Shown here piece after piece: positions 48,016 to 63,669 of a stretch of DNA of 64,000 nt. The stretch comes from Okibacterium fritillariae. Lineage in GTDB: Bacteria > Actinomycetota > Actinomycetes > Actinomycetales > Microbacteriaceae. The first letter of the stretch is position 1, and the number at the start of each line of letters is the position of its first letter. The position numbers were made by a program, and so were the translations under genes. The notes under the pieces were generated by a model. The model was not told where the DNA came from, made no database searches, and was given only the letters and a program-made list of their open reading frames with translations. The stretch is from contig NZ_FUZP01000001.1 in the NCBI RefSeq assembly GCF_900167575.1, forward strand, positions 930,001 through 994,000, read 5' to 3'.

Positions 48016-48516
48016 ATGCGCACCCTGGTGCTGAACGCAGGATACGAACCGCTGGCCATTGTCTCGTTCAAACGAGCGCTCGTGCTGGTGATGAACAAGA
48101 AGGCCACGATCGTCGAGATCGATGCCGGCCACCCCGTCTACGGCGCCACCATGGCGCTCGACCGCCCGTCGGTCATCCTGCTCACGCATTATGTGCGCAT
48201 TCCTCATTCCCGACGGGTGCCCGTGACACGCCGAGGGGTGCTGCGCCGCGACGGCCAGAAATGCGCCTACTGCGCCAAGAACGCCACCACCATCGACCAC
48301 GTGCTGCCGAAGTCGCGCGGGGGAGCGGACAGCTGGGAGAACCTCGTCGCCTGCTGCCTGCGCTGCAACAACGCCAAGAGCGACCGCACGCCCGCCGAAA
48401 TGGGCTGGACGCTGCGCACCATCCCGCGCGTCCCCGTCGGCCCGACCTGGGCGGTGCGCGGCGTGGAGCGTCCGCTGCCGCACTGGGAGCAGTACCTGGG
48501 GCAGCGGGCGGCTTAG
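48016..48516 (+). CDS. HNH endonuclease-domain protein
   Basis: A 166-residue protein: an N-terminal MRTLVLNAGYEPLAIVSFKRALVLV domain, then an HNH core with zinc pairs CAYC and CLRC around TTIDHVLPKSRGGADSWENLVACC and NNAKSDRTPAEMGWTL. This stand-alone family is widespread in actinobacteria. Its DNA substrate and role are not known. GAGAGGAA precedes the ATG. Confidence 0.88.
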   Translation: MRTLVLNAGYEPLAIVSFKRALVLVMNKKATIVEIDAGHPVYGATMALDRPSVILLTHYVRIPHSRRVPVTRRGVLRRDGQKCAYCAKNATTIDHVLPKSRGGADSWENLVACCLRCNNAKSDRTPAEMGWTLRTIPRVPVGPTWAVRGVERPLPHWEQYLGQRAA

Positions 48517-49554: not shown

Positions 49555-52500
49555 TTAGTCGGCCTGGGTGGTTCCGCGCTTGCGGCGGCGGAGGAACGTG
49601 AGGCCGCCGAGTGCCATGGCCGCGAGCGAGGCCGCGATCAGGGCCGAGAGCGCGCCCGGTTCGATGCCCGAACCCGAGTTGGCGAGGGAGCCGTCCGGGT
49701 TGCGCGGGCCGGAGCCCGAACCGTTACCCGAGCCGGAGCCCGAGCCGCCGGGCAGCGCGCCCGAGCCGTTGCCGGCCGGGTCGCCGCCGGTGCCGCCGTC
49801 GGTGCCACCGCCGCCGTTGCCGCCACCCGGGTTCGGGGTCGGCACAGGTTCGGTGATGACCGCCGGCAGGATCGTCAGCATGCGCACCTCGGAGGCGTCG
49901 ACAGCGCCGAACGGGTCGGCCGTCCGCACGTACCAGCCCCGCAGGCCCGGCTCGGGGTTCGTCCACGGCGCACTGAGGATCGAGCCGCTCGCGACATCCG
50001 TGAACGAGGCGATCTTGTGCGTGGTGAGGATGTCGGCGCGGAACGAGTCGGTCGACAACTGCTTCACGGCGGGCGTGATGCCGAGAGCGGTGTAGGGAAC
50101 CTCGAAGTCCTGGTGCTGAACTTCGAGCGTGGGGTCGGCCGAGTTGTACTGGTCGAGCGTGGGCGAGTAGGTGCGCACGATCATGCGACCCTGCTCGTTG
50201 TCGAAGTGCAGCAGGCGCAGGAAGCCCTGGCCGCCCTCGGGCAGGCCCTGGTAGTCGAACAGCATCGAGTAGACGGTGCGGTCGGCGACGCCGTCGCCCG
50301 TGTCGTCGAACTGGTCGGTGCGCGTGAATGCGTCGTGGTAGTGGCCCGAGAACACCATCTTGACGTTGGGGTTCGTGGCCACGACCTCGTCCTGGATGCG
50401 CTGCGGCACCGGTCCGAGGCCACCCGTGGTGAGCATGAACTCGTGCAGGTTGAGCACGGCGACACGCTCGGGGTAGCGGGCGAGCACCTCGTTCAGCCAG
50501 GCGATCTCTTCGTCGGCGGGCGCCCAGCCCATGTAGACGTTGATGAAGTCGATGCCGCCGGCCGAGATGAGGTCGTAGTGACCGCGGTTGTCTTTGTAAC
50601 CGCCGCCGTACCAGGGGTTGTTCGCGAAACGCTTCTCGCCGAAGTTGGCCGAGTACTGGGTGTAGTCGTTGCTCTTCTGGTCGACGTCGTGGTTGCCGGC
50701 GAGCACACCGTAGGGCAGGGCCGCGTCGTCGAGCATCGAGTAGGCCTTGTTGGCGTTGTCCCACTGGTACTGCTGCGTCGAGTCGTCGACGATGTCGCCC
50801 GTGTGGAACAGGTACTGCAGGTTCAGCTCGTCGCGCTGGTCGAGCAGGAACTTGTGGATGTTGAGCTGGTTTTCATAGAACTGCGCGTTGTAGTACTGCG
50901 TGTCCGACTCCCACGCGAACGTGAAGTCGTAGTCGCTGCGCGGGGTGTCGGCCGGGTTGTTCGGCGTGACGGGGGTGTCGCGCGTCGAGCGGTTCTCGCC
51001 CGCGAAGCCCTCCGAGTGCTGCACGAGCACGGTGAGCTGTTCGCCCGTGAGGTGGTCGGCGACGGGAACGTCGGCGGTCAGGGTGAAGGGCGCGAGCACA
51101 TCGGATGCAGCGGCGGCACCGGCCTGGGCGGTCGGCGTCGCTGCGGCTGTTGCTGCGGCATCCGCTTCGGCCTGCGTCGTCAGGTGACGGTCGATCTCTT
51201 CCCAGGCACCCGTCTTGGTGTTGAGGGCGTAGAGGATGACCTGCGCGCCCGGGTTGGCGCTGCCCTGCCAGTCGACGCGCGCGGTGGCGTCGGTTCCGGC
51301 TTGGGCGGGCACGGTCACGTCGAACAGCTGGTAGGGGAACTCGGCGTCGGAAGACACGTCGGCGGTGAGGCCATCCGTGCCGACCAGGTTCTTGAGTTCG
51401 TCTGCCGTCAGCGGCTCGCGTTCGGTGCGTGCGACATCCGAGGCCGTTCCCGTGGTTCCGGCGTAGCTCTTGACGGCCGCGTCGGTCGGGGTGAGGCGCG
51501 TGCCCTCGAGGAAGTCCACGTCGAGGCGGTCTCCCGTCGGGTCGGTGACCTGGGCCTGCAGGGTGACGTCGTCGGCGGTGAGCACGGCTCCGTCTTCGGG
51601 GGCGACGAGGCCGCCCGTGGGCTGCTCCTCGAAGGTGGTGAACGACGCCTCGTAGCGGCCGACGTTGCCCACGGCATCCGTCGCCTCGATCATGAGGGCG
51701 TGTTCACCGGCGGCGAGGTCGAGCGACGACGTGGTGTGCGGCAGCGTGATGGGTTGGCCGTCGAGCGTTGCGCGCGTGTCGGCGACGCCCGATCCGGCAT
51801 CCGTGATCTCGCCGTTGATGACGATCTCGCCCTGGTAGGGGCTGCCGTCGACGATGGTCGAGCGGATGTCGGGCACGGTGTTGTCGACGCGCACGCCACG
51901 CTCGAGCACATCGGTTCCGGATGCCGCGCGCACCGTGTGGGCACCGTCGGTGGTCGCAGTGGTGTCCCAGTTGTAGGCCGCGGCCGTGAAGGCGTCGGCC
52001 GGCAGCGCGAATCGCGCCTCGAAGAAGTCGAGCTTGCCGGTGGAGTCGCCCATGTCGAGCACCTTGGCGGGGTCGGTGTAGTTCGACGGCTGCAGCGTGC
52101 GGCCGTCGGGCAGCACGAGACGCAGGCCGCGGATCTGGAAGTCGTCGTTGTTCTCGTTGAGGTCGATCTCGGGCGCGGCCTTGGTGCCGGCCCACACGCT
52201 CACGACGAGTTCGTCGCCCTGCACCACGTAGGTGAGGGGCACGGGGGTGGAGATGGTGTCCCAGCCCTCGAAGATGCCGTCGTCGAAGATACGCAGCACG
52301 TCGTCGCCGATGCGCACACCGTTGCGGAAGAACGTGTTCACCTGCGTGGCCTCGAACGCGAAGACCGGCTGGTCGGGCAGCGAGGGTGAGGTCGCCACCG
52401 GTTTGCCGTCGATGCCGAGGTCGATGACGCTCGGGAACGTGCGCGTGGCCGCCGAGATGGTCGACGTGCTGCCGAGGAATTCGCCCTCGTCGACGTTGAG

Positions 52501-54417
52501 GCGCAGCGGCGCGGTGTCGACACCGTCGACGGCGAGGCGGCGCGGCTCGGTGGTGACGCTGTTGCGGCCGTCGGTCGCGGTGACCGTGTACTCGTACCAG
52601 GCCTTGCCCGTGAGGTCGGCGGCGGCGACCGTGTGGCGGAAGCGGCCGTCGGCGCCCACCGTGAGGTTCACGGTGCGGGTGTCGGCGTCGATGTCGTTAC
52701 GCAGGGTCAGGGTCGCGGTGCGCACCTGCTGCGCGTCGGTGATGCCGAGGTCGATCACGAAGTCGACCTTCGGGTCGATGCTCGCGGGGGTGGCGTCGGC
52801 GATCACGGGGGCTGCGGCATCCACGGGCTGGATCATGAGGCCCGCGGGAACCTGGTCGGCCGAGACGCGGCCGGGGTTCGCGGCGGCCTGGCCCACGAGG
52901 CGCTGCAGGGTGGTGTCGGTGGGCTGCACGGCGTACTGGATGCCGCGGTCGGCCGCGACATCTTTCACGTTGGCGTTCATGTTGTAGTAGGCGCGGTTGA
53001 TGCCGATGCCCGTCTGCGTGACGATCTGGATGCCGCGGGCCGAGCCGTTGGCCATGCCCGCGCTCTGGATCTCGACGAGTGATGAGCCGGCCTCGAGGTT
53101 TGTGCCGAATTTGGCGTTGAAGTCAGCCGCCGTCAGAGCCTGGTTGCCCGAGTTCTTCACCCAGAGCACGAGCGTCTTACCCGGCTCGATGGTGGGGTTG
53201 TTCGGGATGCTGGGCCAGCGCACCGCATTGCTGTTCGACGTCGTGTCGACGGGGTAGAGGTAGTTGATCTCGTAGTCGGCGAAGTTCACCGGCTCGGAGG
53301 TGGCGTTGTAGACCTCGATGAACTCGTAGCCGTCGCCGCCGCCCACGTTGGCGGAGTCGGGCAGCAGCTCGGTGATCTGGAGCGGCGCTGTGACGAGCGA
53401 CGGGTCGGGCAGGGGAGTGGGCGCGGGGCCGGGGGTCGCGGTGGGCGCCGGCGTGGGTGCGGGCGTCGCGGTGGGGGTGGCCGTCGGCTGCGGGGTTGCC
53501 GTCGGGGTGGCCGTCGGGGTCGCGGTGGGCGCGGCGGTCGGCGTCGGCGTCGCGGTCGGCTCAGGGGTCGCGGTCGGCGCAGGCGTCGGCTCGGGGTTCG
53601 GCGTGCCGCCGATGGCCTCGGGCTTCACGCTTCCGGGCGTCGGGGCCACGGATGTCTCGAGCACGTCCATCGCGGCAACGGTCGGGTCGGCCGGCAGCGC
53701 GAAGTTCACGCCGAGCCCGGCGGCCATCGAACCCTTGGGCGCCCACGACCAGCTCACGGGCGAACCGCCCGACAGCACGCGCACGCCGCGCTCGCCGCCG
53801 TTGGCGATGCCGGCCTGGCCGGTGACGCGCACGACGGGGTAGTCGTCGGCCGTGCCGAAGTGGGCGCGGAAGTCCTCGACCGTGCGGGCGAAGGAGTCGA
53901 CGTTGGTGGCCGTGTAGCTCAGCCAGAACACGACGGTGCCGCCGGCCGGAACGACGGTCGGGGTCTCGGCGACGAGCGGCTTGTCGCGCGCCACGTCGGC
54001 GGCGTTGGTGAAGCTGTAGGCGAAGGAGTAGCCGCCCTCACCGCCCACCGTCACGGGGGCGTCGGAGACGTTGGTCACCTCGAAGTACTCGAACTCGTCG
54101 TAGCCCACGTTGTCGCCGACGATCTCGGTGACGACGAGAGGTGACGCCGAAGCAGCGGCGGCCAGGGCTGCTCGGGCGGCCGCGGAGGAGGCGGGAGCCG
54201 TCGAGGCAGAAGACGCCGACGCGGGCAGCGCGTCGATGCCGACGGACGCGGAGGACGCCGTTCCGAACGCCGAGGTCGAGGCTGAGGCCGAAACGGAGGA
54301 TGCGGATGCCGCGACGGCGGGCAGCGGCGCGGCGCCAATACCGACGGCAGCCGTCAGCGCGAGCGCCAGCGGCGGTAAGAGGGTGCGCGTGGAGCGCGAG
54401 AAAGCGGAGGGGGACAC
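49555..54417 (-). CDS. Giant secreted lamin-tail/metallophosphoesterase protein with sortase-like tail
   Basis: A 1,620-residue exported protein. Signal peptide, residues 1-37; lamin-tail domain 1 at about 95-225; (Thr-Ala-Thr-Pro)n linker at about 265-340; lamin-tail domain 2 at about 342-480. Beta-sandwich/Ig-like repeats run to about 1,150. A calcineurin-like phosphoesterase spans about 1,160-1,400 (SDTQYYN, HTGDIVDD, GNHDVD near 1,240, LHEFM, GHYHD near 1,357). It ends with a Gly/Ser linker, LANSG (about 1,577), a membrane helix and RRRKR, resembling an LAxTG sortase signal. GTG start. A PHO-like repeat set lies upstream. Probably a wall-bound phosphatase or nuclease. Confidence 0.88.
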   Translation of the reverse strand: MSPSAFSRSTRTLLPPLALALTAAVGIGAAPLPAVAASASSVSASASTSAFGTASSASVGIDALPASASSASTAPASSAAARAALAAAASASPLVVTEIVGDNVGYDEFEYFEVTNVSDAPVTVGGEGGYSFAYSFTNAADVARDKPLVAETPTVVPAGGTVVFWLSYTATNVDSFARTVEDFRAHFGTADDYPVVRVTGQAGIANGGERGVRVLSGGSPVSWSWAPKGSMAAGLGVNFALPADPTVAAMDVLETSVAPTPGSVKPEAIGGTPNPEPTPAPTATPEPTATPTPTAAPTATPTATPTATPQPTATPTATPAPTPAPTATPGPAPTPLPDPSLVTAPLQITELLPDSANVGGGDGYEFIEVYNATSEPVNFADYEINYLYPVDTTSNSNAVRWPSIPNNPTIEPGKTLVLWVKNSGNQALTAADFNAKFGTNLEAGSSLVEIQSAGMANGSARGIQIVTQTGIGINRAYYNMNANVKDVAADRGIQYAVQPTDTTLQRLVGQAAANPGRVSADQVPAGLMIQPVDAAAPVIADATPASIDPKVDFVIDLGITDAQQVRTATLTLRNDIDADTRTVNLTVGADGRFRHTVAAADLTGKAWYEYTVTATDGRNSVTTEPRRLAVDGVDTAPLRLNVDEGEFLGSTSTISAATRTFPSVIDLGIDGKPVATSPSLPDQPVFAFEATQVNTFFRNGVRIGDDVLRIFDDGIFEGWDTISTPVPLTYVVQGDELVVSVWAGTKAAPEIDLNENNDDFQIRGLRLVLPDGRTLQPSNYTDPAKVLDMGDSTGKLDFFEARFALPADAFTAAAYNWDTTATTDGAHTVRAASGTDVLERGVRVDNTVPDIRSTIVDGSPYQGEIVINGEITDAGSGVADTRATLDGQPITLPHTTSSLDLAAGEHALMIEATDAVGNVGRYEASFTTFEEQPTGGLVAPEDGAVLTADDVTLQAQVTDPTGDRLDVDFLEGTRLTPTDAAVKSYAGTTGTASDVARTEREPLTADELKNLVGTDGLTADVSSDAEFPYQLFDVTVPAQAGTDATARVDWQGSANPGAQVILYALNTKTGAWEEIDRHLTTQAEADAAATAAATPTAQAGAAAASDVLAPFTLTADVPVADHLTGEQLTVLVQHSEGFAGENRSTRDTPVTPNNPADTPRSDYDFTFAWESDTQYYNAQFYENQLNIHKFLLDQRDELNLQYLFHTGDIVDDSTQQYQWDNANKAYSMLDDAALPYGVLAGNHDVDQKSNDYTQYSANFGEKRFANNPWYGGGYKDNRGHYDLISAGGIDFINVYMGWAPADEEIAWLNEVLARYPERVAVLNLHEFMLTTGGLGPVPQRIQDEVVATNPNVKMVFSGHYHDAFTRTDQFDDTGDGVADRTVYSMLFDYQGLPEGGQGFLRLLHFDNEQGRMIVRTYSPTLDQYNSADPTLEVQHQDFEVPYTALGITPAVKQLSTDSFRADILTTHKIASFTDVASGSILSAPWTNPEPGLRGWYVRTADPFGAVDASEVRMLTILPAVITEPVPTPNPGGGNGGGGTDGGTGGDPAGNGSGALPGGSGSGSGNGSGSGPRNPDGSLANSGSGIEPGALSALIAASLAAMALGGLTFLRRRKRGTTQAD

Positions 54418-56004: not shown

Positions 56005-56010
56005 TAAGGT
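56005..56010 (+). promoter_or_regulatory. -10 element (TAAGGT) of the helicase-like gene
   Basis: TAAGGT ends 6 bases before the GTG start at 56017. No ribosome-binding site is present, so a leaderless transcript is likely. Confidence 0.5.
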
Positions 56011-56016
56011 GACGGT

Positions 56017-59000
56017 GTGTGGCGGCTTGACAGGAAACTAGAAGCGGACGGACTGTCCGAGGTATCGGCCGACGCCAAACGCGGCGGCGGCCTCACGGCG
56101 ACGTCTCCGGGAGGCTTGTCGGCGGGAAGCCCCGACTACCCCGTTGGCAACGTGGCCGATGAGCAACGGCGGCTGTGGCGCGAGCAACTCGCGCAGGTCG
56201 GCGGGCGCTCACCCCTGCTGCATTTCGTCGACGCACCGCGCACGCGCATCGAGCTGAGCTCGACGCATCCGGGTGGTCTGCCCCAGTTCATCTCGGGCAA
56301 GTCGACGCTGCTCTCGAACCTGATTCGGGATGATCTGGCCCTGCGCCGCGCGAAGAGCGCCGCCGAGGTCATCGCCGCCAAGGGTGTCGAACTGCGCACC
56401 GTGCGCGGCATCGACTCCATCCACCTCGCCGTGGGTCTCGCCGAATGGCGCCGCGACGGCGAAGAATACTCGGCTCCGGTGCTGCTGCGCCCGCTCGCCA
56501 TCCGCCGCTACGGCCGCGACTTCGAGCTCAAGCTCACGGGTTCCACCGTGCTCAACCCCGAGCTCGCGCGGGCGCTGAAGGAGCAGTTCGGCATCACGCT
56601 CGACGCCGCCGCCTTCGAAGCCCTCGCCACCACAAACGGCGTCTTCAAGCCCCAGCCCGTGATCGACCGCCTGCGCGGCCTCACCACGCACCTCGACTGG
56701 TTCAGCGTGCAACCGCGCCTCGTGGTCTCGAGCTTCGCGGATGTCGGAACCGCCCTCGCGCGCGACGCCGACGACCTCGACCACCCCATCCTCGACGCCC
56801 TCGCGGGCAACCCCGGCGCTCGACGCCTGGTCGAGGGACTCTTCAGCCCCGTCGACGCCGTCGGCCAGGACGACCGGCCGCCGTCGACCGACACCCTGTT
56901 GCTCGACGCCGACACCGAGCAGGAGAACGTGATCGCGCAGATCACGAACGGCCACTCGATCGTCGTGCAGACGCTGCCCGGCACGGGTGGCACGCAGACC
57001 GTGGTCAACGCCATCGGCTCGCTCGTCTCGCAGCACAAGCGCGTGCTCGTGGTCAGCGCCCGCCGCTCGAGCCTCGACGGCATCCGCCACCGCTTCCAGA
57101 AGGTGGGCCTGCCCGGCCTGACCGTGCACCCGCGATCCATTCGCCGCGACCTCATCCAGGCCATCACGCGCAACGAGAAGGCTGTCGCCCCGCGCGTCGC
57201 CGACGTCGACGACGCGCTCGTGCGCCTGCGCAAAGTGCTGCTCGATTATCGCGGCGCCCTCGGCCACACCAACCCTGCCCTCGGCGTCTCCGTGCTCGAC
57301 GCCCTCGAAGCGCTCACACGCCTCGGCAACCTGGCCGAGCCGCCCGGAACCACGGCGCGCCTCGACCTGATCTCGCTCGAGAAGCTCGCCACCGGCCGCG
57401 CCGAGGTCGCGCAGAAGCTGGCGCACGCCGCCGCCCTGGGCGAATTCCAGTACGGCCCGGGCGACTCGCCCTGGTACGGCGCCTCCTTCAGCAGCACGCG
57501 CGACGCCAAGGCCACGCACGAGCTCGCCAAGAACCTGCACCGCGCCGAACTGCCGCGCCTGCTCGAACGCGGCTACGAACTCATCGGCCAGACGCGCATG
57601 CGCCCCTTCGACTCGATCGAAGAACTGGGCACCTATCTGCGACTGCTCCTCGACATCCGCGAAACGCTCGATAAATTCCAGCCGGCCGTGTTCGACCGCT
57701 CGCTCGGCGAACTCATCGCCGCCACCTCGTCGCGCCGCGACGCGCCCGCCATGACGAGCGCCAACCGCCGCCGCCTCAAGAAGCTGGCCCGCGAATACGT
57801 GCGCCCCGGCGTGCACATCGCCGACCTGAACGAATCGCTGCGCAACATCCAGCAGCAGCGCACGCTGTGGCAACGCTATGTCGCCGCCGGTGTGACCCCC
57901 GAGGTTCCGCTCGGCATCGCCGACGTGCAGGTGGCCTACCAGCGCGTCGTCGAAGATCTCGCGCGCCTCGACGTTCCGCTCAAGCGTGCCGACGGCAACG
58001 ACCGTCTGAAGACCCTGCCCATCAAGTCGCTCGTGCGCCTGATGTCGGGTCTCGCCGCCGACTCCGAGGTCATGGAGAACCTGCAGGAGCGCACGGCCCT
58101 GATTCAGGAGCTGCGCGAAAAGGGCCTCAACCCGCTCATCACCGACCTGTCGGTGCGCCACGTGCCCGAGTCGCGCGTGGCCGACGAACTCGAACTCGCC
58201 TGGTGGCAGTCCGTGCTCGAACACGTGCTCGCGACCGACCGCGCGCTGCTCGGGGCCAACACGAGCGTCATCGATCGGCTCGAGGGCGACTTCCGCCTCG
58301 TCGACGAAGCGCACGCCTCGGCATCCGGTGCCCTGCTCGCCTCGCTGCTCTCGGACAACTGGAAGATCGGCCTGGTCGACTGGAACGACGAAGCCAACGC
58401 CCTGCGCCGCCTGCTCAAGCAGGAACGCGTGACCCCCACCATGCTCGAGCAGCAGGCACCGCATCTGTCGCGCGTGCTGGCACCCGTGTGGATGGTGTCG
58501 CCCTACGAGGTTTCGCAGATTCCGTCGTCCGTGCGCTTCGACACCGTCTTCCTGGTGGATGCCGGAGCCACGACCCTGGCCGAGAACGCCGCCGCCATTC
58601 GCCGCGCCCGTCAGGTGATCGCCGTGGGCGACCCCGTGACGCAGTCGCCGACGCCCTTCGAGATCGCCGTGACCGACGGGCAGGGGGCGCTGGGCGCCTT
58701 CGGCGTTGGCCGTCCGAGCACGGGTTCGGGTTCGGGTTCAGCCGGTGCTTCCGGAGCGGGTTCGACCGCGTCCGATTCCTCGGCTCCCGCGAAGACCGGA
58801 GCGGCGGCTGCGTTCGGCGCCTTCGGTTCGGTGCGACGCGATCCGCTGACCGGTGCTCCCGACGCTGCGCGCGTCGACCCCAACCCCATGCCCGTCACGG
58901 CTCCCGCCAATGCGGCGCGCGCCGACGCCATCCGCACCGAGGAGCGCCTGAGCGGCGGTTCCGCGACGGCCGGGCGTGCCGCCGGCTCGACCGGCACGTC

Positions 59001-60396
59001 CGCAGACTCGGGCGCTCCGGCATCCGGGACGACGGCAGACGCGGGCTCGACGTCGAACGCTGACGCGACGACCGATGCTTCTGGCGTCGCTGACGGTGCC
59101 GGCTCGGCCACTCCTGCCTCGAACGCGGGTTCGACCGGTCCTTCCTCCGCTCCCGAAGCCCCGCGCTTCGACGCCGCCAACCGTGCGCCCGAGGCGCCCC
59201 GCCCCGTCGCCGTATCCTCCTCGACCGTGCCCAACACGATCGTCACGGGCACCGGTGCGGATGCGGCATCCGCGTCGGCCCCCGGGCGCAGCATCGGCGT
59301 CATGGCCGACGCGCTGCACCCCGAATCGGCCCTCGCCAAGCTCTCGGGCCTCCTGCCCACCCTCACGCTCACGCGCAGCTACCGCGCCGGCGGCGAGGAC
59401 CTGGCCCAACTGGTGAACCACCGCTTCTATGGCGGCGAGATCGAGTCGCTGCCCTGGGCCGGTTCGTTCCTCGGCCACGGCAGCCTGACGCTCGACTACG
59501 TACCTCGCGGCCACGGCATGCCCGACCCCGAGACGGGCGGCGTGGAGAGCGTCGACGCCGAGGTCGAGCGCGTGGTCAACCTCGTGCTCGAACACGCCAC
59601 CGAGCGTCCCCGCGAATCCCTCATGGTCATCACGGCGAGCGACAAGCACGCCGTGCGCGTGCACCAGGCCGTGCTGTCGGCCTTCGCCAAGCGCAGCGAC
59701 ATCGCGGGCTTCATTCTCAAGGAGCGCGCCGAGCCGTTCACGGTTCTGACGCTCGAGCAGTCCGTCGCCGAGAGCCGAGACCGCGTCATCTTCTCGCTCG
59801 GTTACGGTGTGACGCCGCACGGCCGCGTGCTCTCGAACTTCGGCGCCCTCGGTCGCCCCGGCGGCGACCGCCTGCTCGCGGTGGGTATGACCCGCGCCCG
59901 GCGATCCATGGTCATCGTCTCGTGCATCCGCCCCGAAGACCTCGACGCCGATCGCATGCAGCACGGCATCGCGGCCCTCGCCGAGATCCTGCGTGAGCCC
60001 GACATCCACCGCCCGGCCCCGCCCGTGACGGATGGTGCCGAGCCCATGCTGCTCGACCTCGCCGAGCGCCTCTACCGCAACGGCCTGCAGGTCGAGATCG
60101 GCTACCGCGGCAAGCTCGCGCTCGTGGCCTCCTACGGCAACAAGGCCGTGGCCATCGAGTCCGACCCCGAGGTGGCCGCCGACTCCCTGCGTGAATCGTT
60201 GCGCCTGCGCCCCGACGTGCTGCGCCGCCTCGGCTGGCACTACCTGCGCGTGCACAGCTTCGACCTGTTCAGCGACCCGGAGGGCGTGGCCCGCAAGGTC
60301 ATGTCCATGCTGGGTGCGGTCTCCGAACCGGATGCTTCCAACCCCGACGATCTCGCCACGGGCCCCATTGCCGTGGTCTCGTCGGGTCGTCACTGA
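56017..60396 (+). CDS. DUF4011 / SF1 helicase-like / PD-(D/E)xK-like giant protein with degenerate motifs
   Basis: A 1,459-residue protein. Residues about 45-200 resemble DUF4011 (EQRRLWREQLAQVGGRSPLLHFVD). A Upf1-like SF1 helicase follows. Walker A reads LPGTGGTQT (320-328), with Gly325 where GTGKSQT has Lys. Walker B reads FLVDAGA (Asp848) in place of DEAS, and motif III is GDPVTQSP instead of GDPKQLPP. An Ala/Ser/Thr/Gly linker spans 897-1090. Later motifs are better kept (RSYRAGGEDL at 1120; VGMTRARRSM near 1290). The end (about 1349-1440) resembles a Vsr/MTES_1575-type nuclease fold (GYRGKLALV, AIESDPE, LRRLGWHYLRVHS), but Lys replaces the first acidic residue. Confidence 0.8.
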   Translation: MWRLDRKLEADGLSEVSADAKRGGGLTATSPGGLSAGSPDYPVGNVADEQRRLWREQLAQVGGRSPLLHFVDAPRTRIELSSTHPGGLPQFISGKSTLLSNLIRDDLALRRAKSAAEVIAAKGVELRTVRGIDSIHLAVGLAEWRRDGEEYSAPVLLRPLAIRRYGRDFELKLTGSTVLNPELARALKEQFGITLDAAAFEALATTNGVFKPQPVIDRLRGLTTHLDWFSVQPRLVVSSFADVGTALARDADDLDHPILDALAGNPGARRLVEGLFSPVDAVGQDDRPPSTDTLLLDADTEQENVIAQITNGHSIVVQTLPGTGGTQTVVNAIGSLVSQHKRVLVVSARRSSLDGIRHRFQKVGLPGLTVHPRSIRRDLIQAITRNEKAVAPRVADVDDALVRLRKVLLDYRGALGHTNPALGVSVLDALEALTRLGNLAEPPGTTARLDLISLEKLATGRAEVAQKLAHAAALGEFQYGPGDSPWYGASFSSTRDAKATHELAKNLHRAELPRLLERGYELIGQTRMRPFDSIEELGTYLRLLLDIRETLDKFQPAVFDRSLGELIAATSSRRDAPAMTSANRRRLKKLAREYVRPGVHIADLNESLRNIQQQRTLWQRYVAAGVTPEVPLGIADVQVAYQRVVEDLARLDVPLKRADGNDRLKTLPIKSLVRLMSGLAADSEVMENLQERTALIQELREKGLNPLITDLSVRHVPESRVADELELAWWQSVLEHVLATDRALLGANTSVIDRLEGDFRLVDEAHASASGALLASLLSDNWKIGLVDWNDEANALRRLLKQERVTPTMLEQQAPHLSRVLAPVWMVSPYEVSQIPSSVRFDTVFLVDAGATTLAENAAAIRRARQVIAVGDPVTQSPTPFEIAVTDGQGALGAFGVGRPSTGSGSGSAGASGAGSTASDSSAPAKTGAAAAFGAFGSVRRDPLTGAPDAARVDPNPMPVTAPANAARADAIRTEERLSGGSATAGRAAGSTGTSADSGAPASGTTADAGSTSNADATTDASGVADGAGSATPASNAGSTGPSSAPEAPRFDAANRAPEAPRPVAVSSSTVPNTIVTGTGADAASASAPGRSIGVMADALHPESALAKLSGLLPTLTLTRSYRAGGEDLAQLVNHRFYGGEIESLPWAGSFLGHGSLTLDYVPRGHGMPDPETGGVESVDAEVERVVNLVLEHATERPRESLMVITASDKHAVRVHQAVLSAFAKRSDIAGFILKERAEPFTVLTLEQSVAESRDRVIFSLGYGVTPHGRVLSNFGALGRPGGDRLLAVGMTRARRSMVIVSCIRPEDLDADRMQHGIAALAEILREPDIHRPAPPVTDGAEPMLLDLAERLYRNGLQVEIGYRGKLALVASYGNKAVAIESDPEVAADSLRESLRLRPDVLRRLGWHYLRVHSFDLFSDPEGVARKVMSMLGAVSEPDASNPDDLATGPIAVVSSGRH

Positions 60397-62008: not shown

Positions 62009-62470
62009 CTAGTTGTGGGCGCGGGGATCTTCGCCCTTGTTGTCGGTGTACGTGTCAGCCCCCTGCTGGCGCGCAAGCAGGTCCCGGATGTCGGTCAGCA
62101 TCTCGAGCTCGGTCGGGGTCGCCTTCTCGTCGACCTCGCCCGACTTCTTCTTCGCGAACGCGGCTTCTTTCAGCTTGTTCATGGGCACGACGAGCACGAA
62201 GTACACGACGGCGGCCACGAGCAGGAACTGGATGACGGCGCCGATGACGGCTCCGAAGTACAGGGTTGCCGAGCCGCCCGAGGTCGTCGGGATGGTCAGC
62301 GGGAGGGCTTTCGCGAGGCTCTCGGCGTTGAACAGCGCGCCGAGCAGCGGGTTGAAGACCGCGTTGACCAGGGCGGTGACGATGGCCGAGAACGCCGCGC
62401 CGATGACGACGGCGACCGCGAGATCCATCACATTGCCGCGAAGGATGAACTCCTTGAAACCTTTGAACAT
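62009..62470 (-). CDS. mscL: Large-conductance mechanosensitive channel MscL
   Basis: A 153-residue channel subunit: N-terminal FKGFKEFILRGNVMDLAVAVVIGAAF, two membrane helices (about 14-44 and 70-100) and a cytoplasmic helix (ELEMLTDIRDLLARQQ). It opens under membrane tension to release solutes. AAAGGTCCCTC precedes the ATG. Confidence 0.95.
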   Translation of the reverse strand: MFKGFKEFILRGNVMDLAVAVVIGAAFSAIVTALVNAVFNPLLGALFNAESLAKALPLTIPTTSGGSATLYFGAVIGAVIQFLLVAAVVYFVLVVPMNKLKEAAFAKKKSGEVDEKATPTELEMLTDIRDLLARQQGADTYTDNKGEDPRAHN

Positions 62471-62614: not shown

Positions 62615-63028
62615 CTAGGACGACGACGAGCCGGACGAACCGCTGCCGGACGACGAGCTGGCCGAACCGGAGGAGCCCGAACCCGAGGAACCGGCGCCCG
62701 AACCGGACGAACCCGATCCGGATGTTCCGGAGCCCGAGGAGCCGGAACCGGAGGAGCCCGAGCCCGAACCTGAGCCCGACGACTTGGAGTCGGACGAGGA
62801 CGAAGAGCCCGAGGCATCCGATGTGGGGATCGACGAGGACTTGCCCGAACCCGCGCGCGAGTCGGTGCGGTAGAACCCCGACCCGTTGAACGTGACGCCG
62901 ACGGCCGCGAAGATCTTGCGCAGCTTGCCGCCGCATACGGGGCACTCGGTCAGCGAATCGTCGGTGAAGGCCTGCTGAATGTCGAAGGCGTTGCCGCATT
63001 CGGTGCATTTATAGGAGTAAGTGGGCAT
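62615..63028 (-). CDS. FmdB-type zinc-ribbon protein with Ser/Gly tail
   Basis: A 137-residue protein. Residues 1-55 are a zinc ribbon (YSYKCTECGNAFDIQQ and CPVCGGKLRKIF) of the FmdB putative regulatory family, ending in GVTFNGSGFYRTD. The remaining 75 residues are nearly all Ser and Gly, a tail common but variable in actinobacterial members. Function unknown. Lies 62 bases after the cyclo-ligase. Confidence 0.88.
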   Translation of the reverse strand: MPTYSYKCTECGNAFDIQQAFTDDSLTECPVCGGKLRKIFAAVGVTFNGSGFYRTDSRAGSGKSSSIPTSDASGSSSSSDSKSSGSGSGSGSSGSGSSGSGTSGSGSSGSGAGSSGSGSSGSASSSSGSGSSGSSSS

Positions 63029-63090: not shown

Positions 63091-63669
63091 CTAAAAGTCC
63101 AGGATACGCGAGGGCGTGACGACGCCGTTGACGGGCTGGTCGTGCACCTCACGCGGCAGGTCGGTGAGCAGCTCGGCGTCATAGACGACCGCGTAGACGG
63201 GCGGGCATTTCTCCATCGATCCGAGCGTCTTGTCGAAGTAGCCGCGGCCCCAGCCCATGCGCATGCCGCCCTGGTCGATGGCGGCCGCGGGCACGATGAT
63301 GAGGTCGACCTGGTTGATGGCGATGGGGCCGAGCAGCTCGCCGACGGGCTCGGGCATGCCGAAGAGGCCCTGCGTCTCGTCACCCGTCTCGCCGACCGTC
63401 CAGTCGAGCAGGCCGTCGTCGCGGCTCACAGGGAACAGCACGCGGATGCCCTGCTCGAGCGCCCAGTTGAGGAAAGGTCGCGTATCGGGCTCGGTCTGCG
63501 TCGACAGGTAGCACGCCACCGAGCGGGCATCGAGGGCCGTCACGAGCGACTGCAAGTGCTCGGTCACGCCGATCGTCGCGTTGTCCTTCTCGGTCTGAGT
63601 GAGGTTCTGCCGCCTCTCACGCAGTTCGGCTCTGAGCGCGCGTTTTTGGTGGTCCACCTCGGTTGCCAT
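63091..63669 (-). CDS. 5-formyltetrahydrofolate cyclo-ligase
   Basis: A 192-residue folate enzyme converting 5-formyl-THF to methenyl-THF with ATP. It starts with a basic KRALRAELRERRQNL and ends with the ATP-site signature GMRMGWGRGYFDKTL. TACACT lies 7 bases before the ATG, so the cluster fau-like, FmdB-type, mscL, MFS probably starts as a leaderless transcript. Divergent from galU. Confidence 0.92.
   Translation of the reverse strand: MATEVDHQKRALRAELRERRQNLTQTEKDNATIGVTEHLQSLVTALDARSVACYLSTQTEPDTRPFLNWALEQGIRVLFPVSRDDGLLDWTVGETGDETQGLFGMPEPVGELLGPIAINQVDLIIVPAAAIDQGGMRMGWGRGYFDKTLGSMEKCPPVYAVVYDAELLTDLPREVHDQPVNGVVTPSRILDF

Follow-up and report, generated by a model that had tools for sequence, protein, structure and literature searches.

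A giant helicase-nuclease-like protein without ATPase motifs, encoded by a core gene of an actinobacterial order

What is maintained when a gene for a large helicase-nuclease stays open and the residues that would drive its chemistry are gone? This question is raised by a stretch of 64,000 nucleotides from Okibacterium fritillariae (assembly GCF_900167575.1, contig NZ_FUZP01000001.1, positions 930,001 to 994,000; the whole stretch is called the window here), in which positions 56017-60396 encode a protein of 1459 amino acids that combines DUF4011-like, superfamily 1 (SF1) helicase-like and PD-(D/E)xK nuclease-like parts. Our study identified this gene as an order-wide core gene, mostly syntenic, which is under purifying selection and has changed repeatedly between an intact and a catalytically degenerate state. 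The best reading is a giant core-gene pseudo-helicase, kin to the known families ProA, PDC-S37 and Hhe. At a rough probability of 0.6, we regard it as a pseudo-enzyme, in which an ancestral core helicase-nuclease would have been turned repeatedly into a non-catalytic nucleic-acid scaffold.

Catalytic residues in an intact frame

The gene and its parts are as follows.

56017-60396, forward strand: gene of the giant protein (1459 amino acids, GTG start), catalytically degenerate DUF4011/SF1-helicase/PD-(D/E)xK-like, open frame
56161-56886, forward strand: N-terminal DUF4011-like region, residues 49-290 (Pfam DUF4011 at 125-185, profile comparison)
56971-57000, forward strand: degenerate motif I (Walker A), TLPGTGGTQT, residues 319-328, with the Gly325 codon at 56989-56991
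57217-58506, forward strand: long predicted-helical insert (residues 401-830) that separates motif Ia from motif Ic (alignment; model of an orthologue, L010)
58540-58569, forward strand: degenerate motif II (Walker B), DTVFLVDAGA, residues 842-851 (alignment with intact orthologues)
58627-58659, forward strand: degenerate motif III, GDPVTQSPTPF, residues 871-881 (alignment)
58672-59298, forward strand: Ala/Gly/Ser/Thr-rich linker, residues 886-1094, which parts motif III from the second RecA domain
59299-60006, forward strand: second RecA-like domain (residues 1095-1330), which carries motifs IV-VI (alignment)
60028-60321, forward strand: PD-(D/E)xK-like (MTES_1575) domain, residues 1338-1435 (Pfam, alignment)

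A preliminary description of this DNA had proposed an intact frame of 4.4 kb with DUF4011-like, Upf1-like SF1 helicase and PD-(D/E)xK-like parts in that order, and both proposals hold. The frame is open over its 1459 amino acids, and a wrong start or a frame artefact was ruled out, since frame and GTG start are both conserved in the 11 of 11 Microbacteriaceae loci of our first scan. The domain order is borne out by Pfam, with a DUF4011 match at residues 125-185 (21.6 bits against a cut-off of 22.2, and 24.4 bits in a six-frame search), weak AAA_11 and AAA_12 matches in the helicase part, and an MTES_1575 nuclease match at residues 1348-1431 (E 4.2e-7, 30.4 bits, below the cut-off of 38.2). The Upf1-like helicase branch is borne out by a profile of the degenerate family, which among solved structures matches best two helicases of the Upf1 type, NAM7 and SMUBP-2 (E about 5e-4); the structure-database search with the window protein as a single sequence gave chance matches only. 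The MTES_1575-type restriction endonuclease family (PF18741) is named after a Microbacterium protein (PMC3710099; this and the other cited papers are drawn on in excerpt), which, as described there, is longer and is fused to HEPN, transglutaminase and wHTH parts; it has the C-terminal nuclease-like domain in common with the window protein.

Intact relatives have GPPGTGKSQT (or GTGKT) and DEAS, with GDxxQ[L/M/V]xP in nearly all cases, where the window protein has TLPGTGGTQT, VDAGA and GDPVTQSPTP. The proposed replacement of the Walker A lysine by Gly325 (LPGTGGTQT) is confirmed, as is the loss of motif III, which reads GDPVTQSPTP in place of GDxxQLPP. For Walker B, the DAGA at residues 848-851 is present as described, but the true change is from DE to V847-D848 and not to DA: in a gap-free alignment from Asp842, Val847 occupies the position of the Walker B Asp and Asp848 that of the Glu. 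Our 60 Microbacteriaceae rows have V 45, L 13 and A 2 at column 847 and D 59 and G 1 at column 848. Motifs IV-VI had been called better conserved, which is right for the arginine stretches SYR (IV) and TRAR (VI) and wrong for QGDE (V) and the Asn (VI), both of which are gone.

In the nuclease-like domain, Lys1366 had been taken for the lost first acid, which is the wrong column; the acid belongs two residues on, at column 1368, where the window has Ala1368 (codon 60118-60120). This column holds Asp in 13/13 intact members, which suggests a catalytic role for it, and G 21, A 18, P 16, T 4 and R 1 in the 60 Microbacteriaceae rows. Two further acids are present in the window, Glu1381 (kept in 48/60 of these rows, Asp in 11) and Asp1383 (kept in 60/60). 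The window protein consequently has neither the Walker A lysine and Walker B DE of an active SF1 helicase nor, with Ala at column 1368, the first acidic residue of an active PD-(D/E)xK nuclease, and it is probably inactive both as an ATPase and as a nuclease.

The helical insert is the best part of an otherwise poor AlphaFold model of the L010 orthologue, with 10-residue means of the predicted local distance difference test (pLDDT) of 45-92 over fragment residues 361-700 and low values beyond. The linker has about 200 residues in the window, against a median of 14 and a range of 3-210 in the 60 Microbacteriaceae rows; its ratio of non-synonymous to synonymous change (dN/dS), 0.18 between the window and L002, is the top value among the regions compared.

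Relatives, locus and repeated change of state

Special attention was given to whether the loss is a local event, as would be expected if close homologues kept GKS and DEAS. They do not: 11/11 Microbacteriaceae loci of the first scan have GTGGTQT, DAGA and GDPV, and the Walker A lysine is absent in 57/57 readable loci of 59 Microbacteriaceae loci collected later, some of them from genomes common to both sets. Five Microbacteriaceae genomes also carry long ProA-like genes elsewhere (L019-L023), with GPPGTGKSQT and DEAS in 5/5; these were read as intact, so intact motifs would have been detected. Local decay, by which the gene would be a pseudogene in the course of being lost, has in its favour the loss of catalytic residues itself and nothing else; it is refuted by the open frames of the relatives, by low dN/dS and by the same degenerate state in all readable Microbacteriaceae rows.

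Beyond the family (families of the order carry f numbers here, loci L numbers and genomes G numbers), we compared 158 family sequences, 145 without the ATPase motifs (2 unreadable at motif I) and 13 that keep motifs I and II, a ratio from a biased sample, as a profile of degenerate members was used to pick the loci outside Microbacteriaceae, by best score. This sample covers 76 loci of the order outside Microbacteriaceae (16 + 60), the best-scoring among the matches listed; families f43, f44, f45, f46, f48, f50 and f51 lie outside it, and two of its members, L013 and L182 from Actinomyces oris, are nearly identical in sequence. In the 156 readable sequences both motifs are lost (143) or both are kept (13), never one alone, and motif III is also lost in 140 of the 143. 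The intact members are 8/12 of f4, 2/2 of f5, 2/2 of f22 and 1/1 of f29. Within f4 we also observed what look like decay stages (L221, L141, L142, L143, L137 and L222), from intact through altered motifs III, V and VI to loss of motifs I and II.

Degenerate and intact forms are co-linear homologues: their profiles align over 1181 columns (hhalign, probability 100, 33% identity), the intact members being DUF4011/SF1/MTES_1575 helicase-nucleases. In all, 79 positions are common to intact rows (at least 90%), Microbacteriaceae (at least 90%) and other degenerate rows (at least 80%). Columns invariant in intact members are kept in Microbacteriaceae at 34/49 in the N-terminal part, 37/57 in the helical insert, 46/65 in the second RecA domain and 12/22 around motifs Ic-III.

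These same rows bear on whether the proteins could be active enzymes with a non-canonical ATP site, for example with the arginine that stands for the lysine in 17/17 rows of f24. Such an enzyme would use the retained P-loop backbone and arginine finger, and it is true that most Microbacteriaceae keep GTGxTQT around the lost lysine, the motif IV and VI arginines, and the two nuclease acids at 1381 and 1383. We nevertheless consider this unlikely. First, the lysine column is variable: G in 40/60 Microbacteriaceae rows and otherwise A, S, Y, V, L, I or R, and elsewhere mostly Q in f2, A in f6 and V in f8, with T too in other families. Second, motif II is lost along with it in 143/143 readable cases, and motif III in nearly all of these. 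Third, the P-loop itself is eroded in f7, f8, f42, f47 and f52. A Walker A lysine apparent in L187 (f42) was dismissed as a coincidence of alignment (PPGSEKFSTL).

The gene is close to universal in the order. A search with family models matched 60/60 Microbacteriaceae genomes from 59 genera (2 above the ProA cut-off), and the gene is present in all 59 Microbacteriaceae loci retrieved; a profile of 24 degenerate members (A4) matched 295/297 genomes of the order and 93/93 genera. Genomes of 0.8-0.9 Mb are included, G015 with its locus read and G390 and G502 by profile match alone. At class level the A4 profile matched 117/296 genomes, many by short helicase-motif stretches only.

The place of the gene is also conserved. 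In the window the downstream genes are the following.

62009-62470, reverse strand: mscL, downstream convergent neighbour in most loci
62615-63028, reverse strand: FmdB-like zinc-ribbon protein, downstream neighbour in most loci
63091-63669, reverse strand: 5-formyltetrahydrofolate cyclo-ligase (5-FTHF cyclo-ligase), downstream neighbour in 55/59 Microbacteriaceae loci

Counting a locus as conserved when at least one of mscL, the FmdB-like gene and the 5-FTHF cyclo-ligase gene lies downstream, convergent and within 7 kb, we found it in 125/144 degenerate loci (the 145 minus the window; some of the misses are contig ends or short flanks), in 10/13 intact members and in 55/59 loci of Microbacteriaceae. 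Since ten intact members occupy the locus of the degenerate forms, we read the gene as a core gene that lost catalysis. A mobile or phage origin was rejected: tblastn gave one weak phage record, and 340 plasmid records hold distant relatives, all below 60% identity and none covering 80% of the query, without any plasmid match at the DNA level. The best relative in a plasmid record, at 28% identity, is in a 415-kb record of Actinomyces oris, which has the same downstream neighbours as the chromosomal loci and DtxR and C40 peptidase genes upstream. One viral-contig stretch matched a pattern and is unconfirmed as a relative. Upstream in the window, at 49555-54417 on the reverse strand, we noted a gene whose product, of 1620 residues, combines lamin-tail domains with a calcineurin-like phosphoesterase; a relative lies beside the giant gene in L002 alone among 13 loci.

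Trees were built with the motif columns removed, from a sampling in which 7 of the 17 f24 rows were dropped and 15 of the 60 Microbacteriaceae rows used; the 112-row tree takes the same choice and adds 60 loci. Intact f4 and f5 rows fall between the degenerate groups, which are a large clade (f1, f2, f3, f6, f7, f8, f42, f47, f49, f52 and A. oris), a second group of f24 and f13, and, inside f4, one or two more. On the 112-row tree at least four changes are needed for motif II and at least five for Walker A, the fifth because of the L187 coincidence; on a careful 24-row tree the Walker A minimum is four. A single clade for the 13 degenerate rows of the 24-row tree was rejected (log-likelihood lower by 80.6, approximately unbiased test p-AU 0.00032), in a test whose group was defined by motif, but after the trees had been seen. 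On these trees the degenerate forms lie in at least three clades, probably in four. The direction would be loss, because all outgroups are intact and regain of several motifs is implausible.

Selection and the start of the gene

The preliminary description had proposed a maintained pseudo-helicase, and this is supported: the form is Microbacteriaceae-wide, the gene is near-universal in the order and mostly syntenic, and it is under purifying selection. Four close Microbacteriaceae pairs have dN/dS of 0.027-0.066, and a fifth, distant one (window against L005) has 0.169. The 12 degenerate pairs compared, from several families, span 0.066-0.352 and the 4 intact pairs 0.241-0.285, both ranges obtained by a simple counting method on pairs of unequal divergence. 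By these values the degenerate forms look as constrained as the intact ones, and no more relaxed. Root-to-tip paths in a 52-row tree are longer for degenerate rows (mean 1.89, 37 rows) than for intact rows (1.12, 9 rows), which could reflect faster change during part of their history.

The 5' end of the gene showed features of its own.

56005-56010, forward strand: possible -10 element TAAGGT, 6 bases 5' of the GTG start

With this possible -10 element, the transcript is likely leaderless. A TANNNT directly 5' of the picked start was counted in 36 of the 50 Microbacteriaceae loci evaluated (9 of 59 were left aside), a raw count without a chance level, in which an internal Val-Trp was picked as the start in several loci and at least one of these scored positive. 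In addition, synonymous change in codons 1-48 (56017-56160) is roughly 3- to 7-fold below that of the gene as a whole in the four close pairs, with synonymous divergence (dS) of 0.053 against 0.23, 0.158 against 1.164, 0.128 against 0.604 and 0.249 against 0.708; the distant fifth pair (window against L005) has no such drop (1.41 against 0.92). The low values look as if a second signal overlapped the start of the gene.

Defence kinship and the proposed scaffold

The named families closest to the window protein carry an anti-phage or candidate anti-phage label. The nearest NCBIfam model is ProA (NF058533), which the window protein matches at 296.9 bits (E 2.9e-88), far under the cut-off of 1500; four intact short orthologues score 801-869 bits, likewise below it. 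Walker A and Walker B, intact in 5/5 of the ProA-like copies L019-L023, are replaced in the window by GTGGT and VDAG. Hhe (NF042953) is matched at 133 bits, below its cut-off of 2000. Among the PADLOC models, PDC-S37 is nearest (E 3.8e-95), ahead of Hhe (E 9.8e-32), and its profile, which has no listed cut-off or description, is matched along the helicase and nuclease parts. The kinship to Hhe proposed in the preliminary description is thus real as homology, but ProA and PDC-S37 are nearer. ProA and PDC-S37 have the same domain order as the window protein and are homologous across most of it; the ProA-like copies L019-L023 differ in their length of 1777-2220 amino acids, in having the ATPase motifs, and in being sited elsewhere in the genome, whereas the window gene is a core gene. 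The anti-phage role of ProA is taken here from its family name. Hhe, classed as SF1_Upf1 (PMC10925250, as excerpted), has DUF4011 and an SF1 helicase in common with the window protein, which differs in its weaker match and in having no catalytic motifs. In the open-licence PubMed Central (PMC) literature we found no paper specific to the family, nor a primary paper on Hhe or any account of the ProA anti-phage protein.

A defence role for the window gene is possible. The protein could still be anti-phage, as a dead sensor or decoy derived from a ProA/Hhe-type enzyme, binding phage nucleic acid or protein and signalling to an effector. The named families point that way, as do the matches of 24/24 diverse family members (A4) to PDC-S37 and Hhe at E 1e-10 or better, and the longer root-to-tip paths of the dead forms could be explained by fast host-parasite change. 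A large DUF4011 gene of Pseudomonas aeruginosa, present in every isolate, flanks the core defence hotspot cDHS1, according to the excerpted account (PMC10250203); it too is a core gene, although of a different phylum, and is likened to ours by DUF4011 and core status alone. We nonetheless find a defence role doubtful. The long ProA-like genes occur in only 5/60 Microbacteriaceae genomes, the score lies far from the ProA cut-off, and the neighbours identified with Pfam and NCBIfam (no PADLOC scan of the neighbours was made) are not defence genes, bar an ambiguous HNH protein at 48016-48516. Housekeeping is favoured by the gene's fixed place, by its near-universality and by the matches found in reduced genomes. 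ProA-type defence enzymes may equally have originated from core genes of this kind.

We therefore return to the scaffold. Its ancestor would have been a vertically inherited DUF4011/Upf1-like SF1/PD-(D/E)xK helicase-nuclease, at one site upstream of mscL in most of the order. The ATPase motifs would have been lost at least three, probably four, times, and the first nuclease acid too in many lineages, that of the window included, with the rest of the protein kept by purifying selection. The helicase-like channel and the nuclease-like domain may then bind single-stranded DNA or RNA, and the protein may present it to a partner enzyme or regulate that enzyme, much as the inactivated domains of RecC and AddB act in the processing of DNA breaks, or as proposed for Deinococcus PriA with DnaB. 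The non-catalytic platform is proposed because the ATP-site residues and a nuclease acid are gone, much of the body is kept, and RecC, AddB and PriA offer an analogy; a role as scaffold or sensor is suggested on that footing.

RecC and AddB work in a known complex and belong to a different SF1 branch, and PriA belongs to superfamily 2. As set out in the excerpts used, the nuclease-like domain of RecC forms a hoop for single-stranded DNA (PMC1185551), and the inactivated helicase domains of AddB and RecC are taken to read Chi (PMC4824097). The likeness lies in SF1-helicase-like and, in RecC, PD-(D/E)xK-like parts that are used in DNA handling without catalytic residues; the window family differs by its DUF4011 and long helical insert, and the likeness is functional, with no relation in sequence claimed. 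Deinococcus PriA binds DNA and interacts with DnaB without ATPase activity (PMC4504706), a bacterial helicase retained after the loss of its ATPase; it differs in architecture and, in that account, is reported in one phylum.

Several points weigh against the scaffold. The lost residues and persisting selection fit a pseudohelicase, but the fold models are poor: AlphaFold models of two fragments of the L010 orthologue, from a 12-row alignment, have mean pLDDT of 51.1 and 47.6, so the predicted fold rests on profile homology. The missing lysine argues strongly for inactivity but does not prove it beyond doubt. Beside the sampling bias noted above, the tree tools flagged long rows and odd composition in many rows, the placement of f13 beside f24 was not settled in the 24-row tree, and parsimony is blind to loss as against gain, so that the inferred direction leans on the intact outgroups. 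The conserved neighbours were seen in 0/8 f7 loci, not at the f13 locus, and in 0/3 intact f22/f29 loci, with short flanks in some of these. The gene also looks single, with a convergent neighbour downstream and variable neighbours upstream.

Nuclease loss, moreover, is not uniform across families in the alignments. The first nuclease acid is Asp in 11/12 f2 rows and Asp or Glu in 7/8 f7 rows (one gap) and 2/2 f49 rows, and 6/7 f6 rows have an I-D pair aligned one column off. In f2 (L128-L130, L192-L200) and f7 (L136, L230-L233, L240, L241) dead helicase motifs are thus seen together with, mostly, Asp or Glu at this position, and these proteins are possibly nucleases with a helicase-fold arm. 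It could follow that f2, f7, f49 and perhaps f6 keep the dead helicase as the binding arm of an active nuclease, a function lost in the family of the window. As an account of the whole we think this very improbable: the Asp is found in 0/60 Microbacteriaceae rows, and f8, f42, f47 and f52 have neither the column-1368 Asp nor Glu1381.

A more far-reaching suggestion, which we offer tentatively, is that the essential job of the DUF4011/SF1 body was never to unwind or cut but to act on nucleic acid structurally or as a sensor; it would be a RecC-like platform in actinobacterial DNA or RNA metabolism, with ProA-type defence enzymes possibly derived from it and not the reverse.

The finding has consequences at three levels. 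First, in the open-licence papers searched we found no described function for this gene, which is matched in 295/297 genomes of the order, those of 0.8-0.9 Mb included. Second, as the ProA, PDC-S37 and Hhe profiles match this core gene, defence surveys with loose cut-offs could count false candidate systems; PADLOC PDC-S37 is a possible source of such calls for members of the family. Third, intact and dead orthologues occur naturally at one locus, even inside f4, and offer a ready comparison for function that survives the loss of chemistry. That both ATPase motifs were lost in parallel is unusual in evolution, and it makes a non-catalytic role of a helicase fold directly testable.

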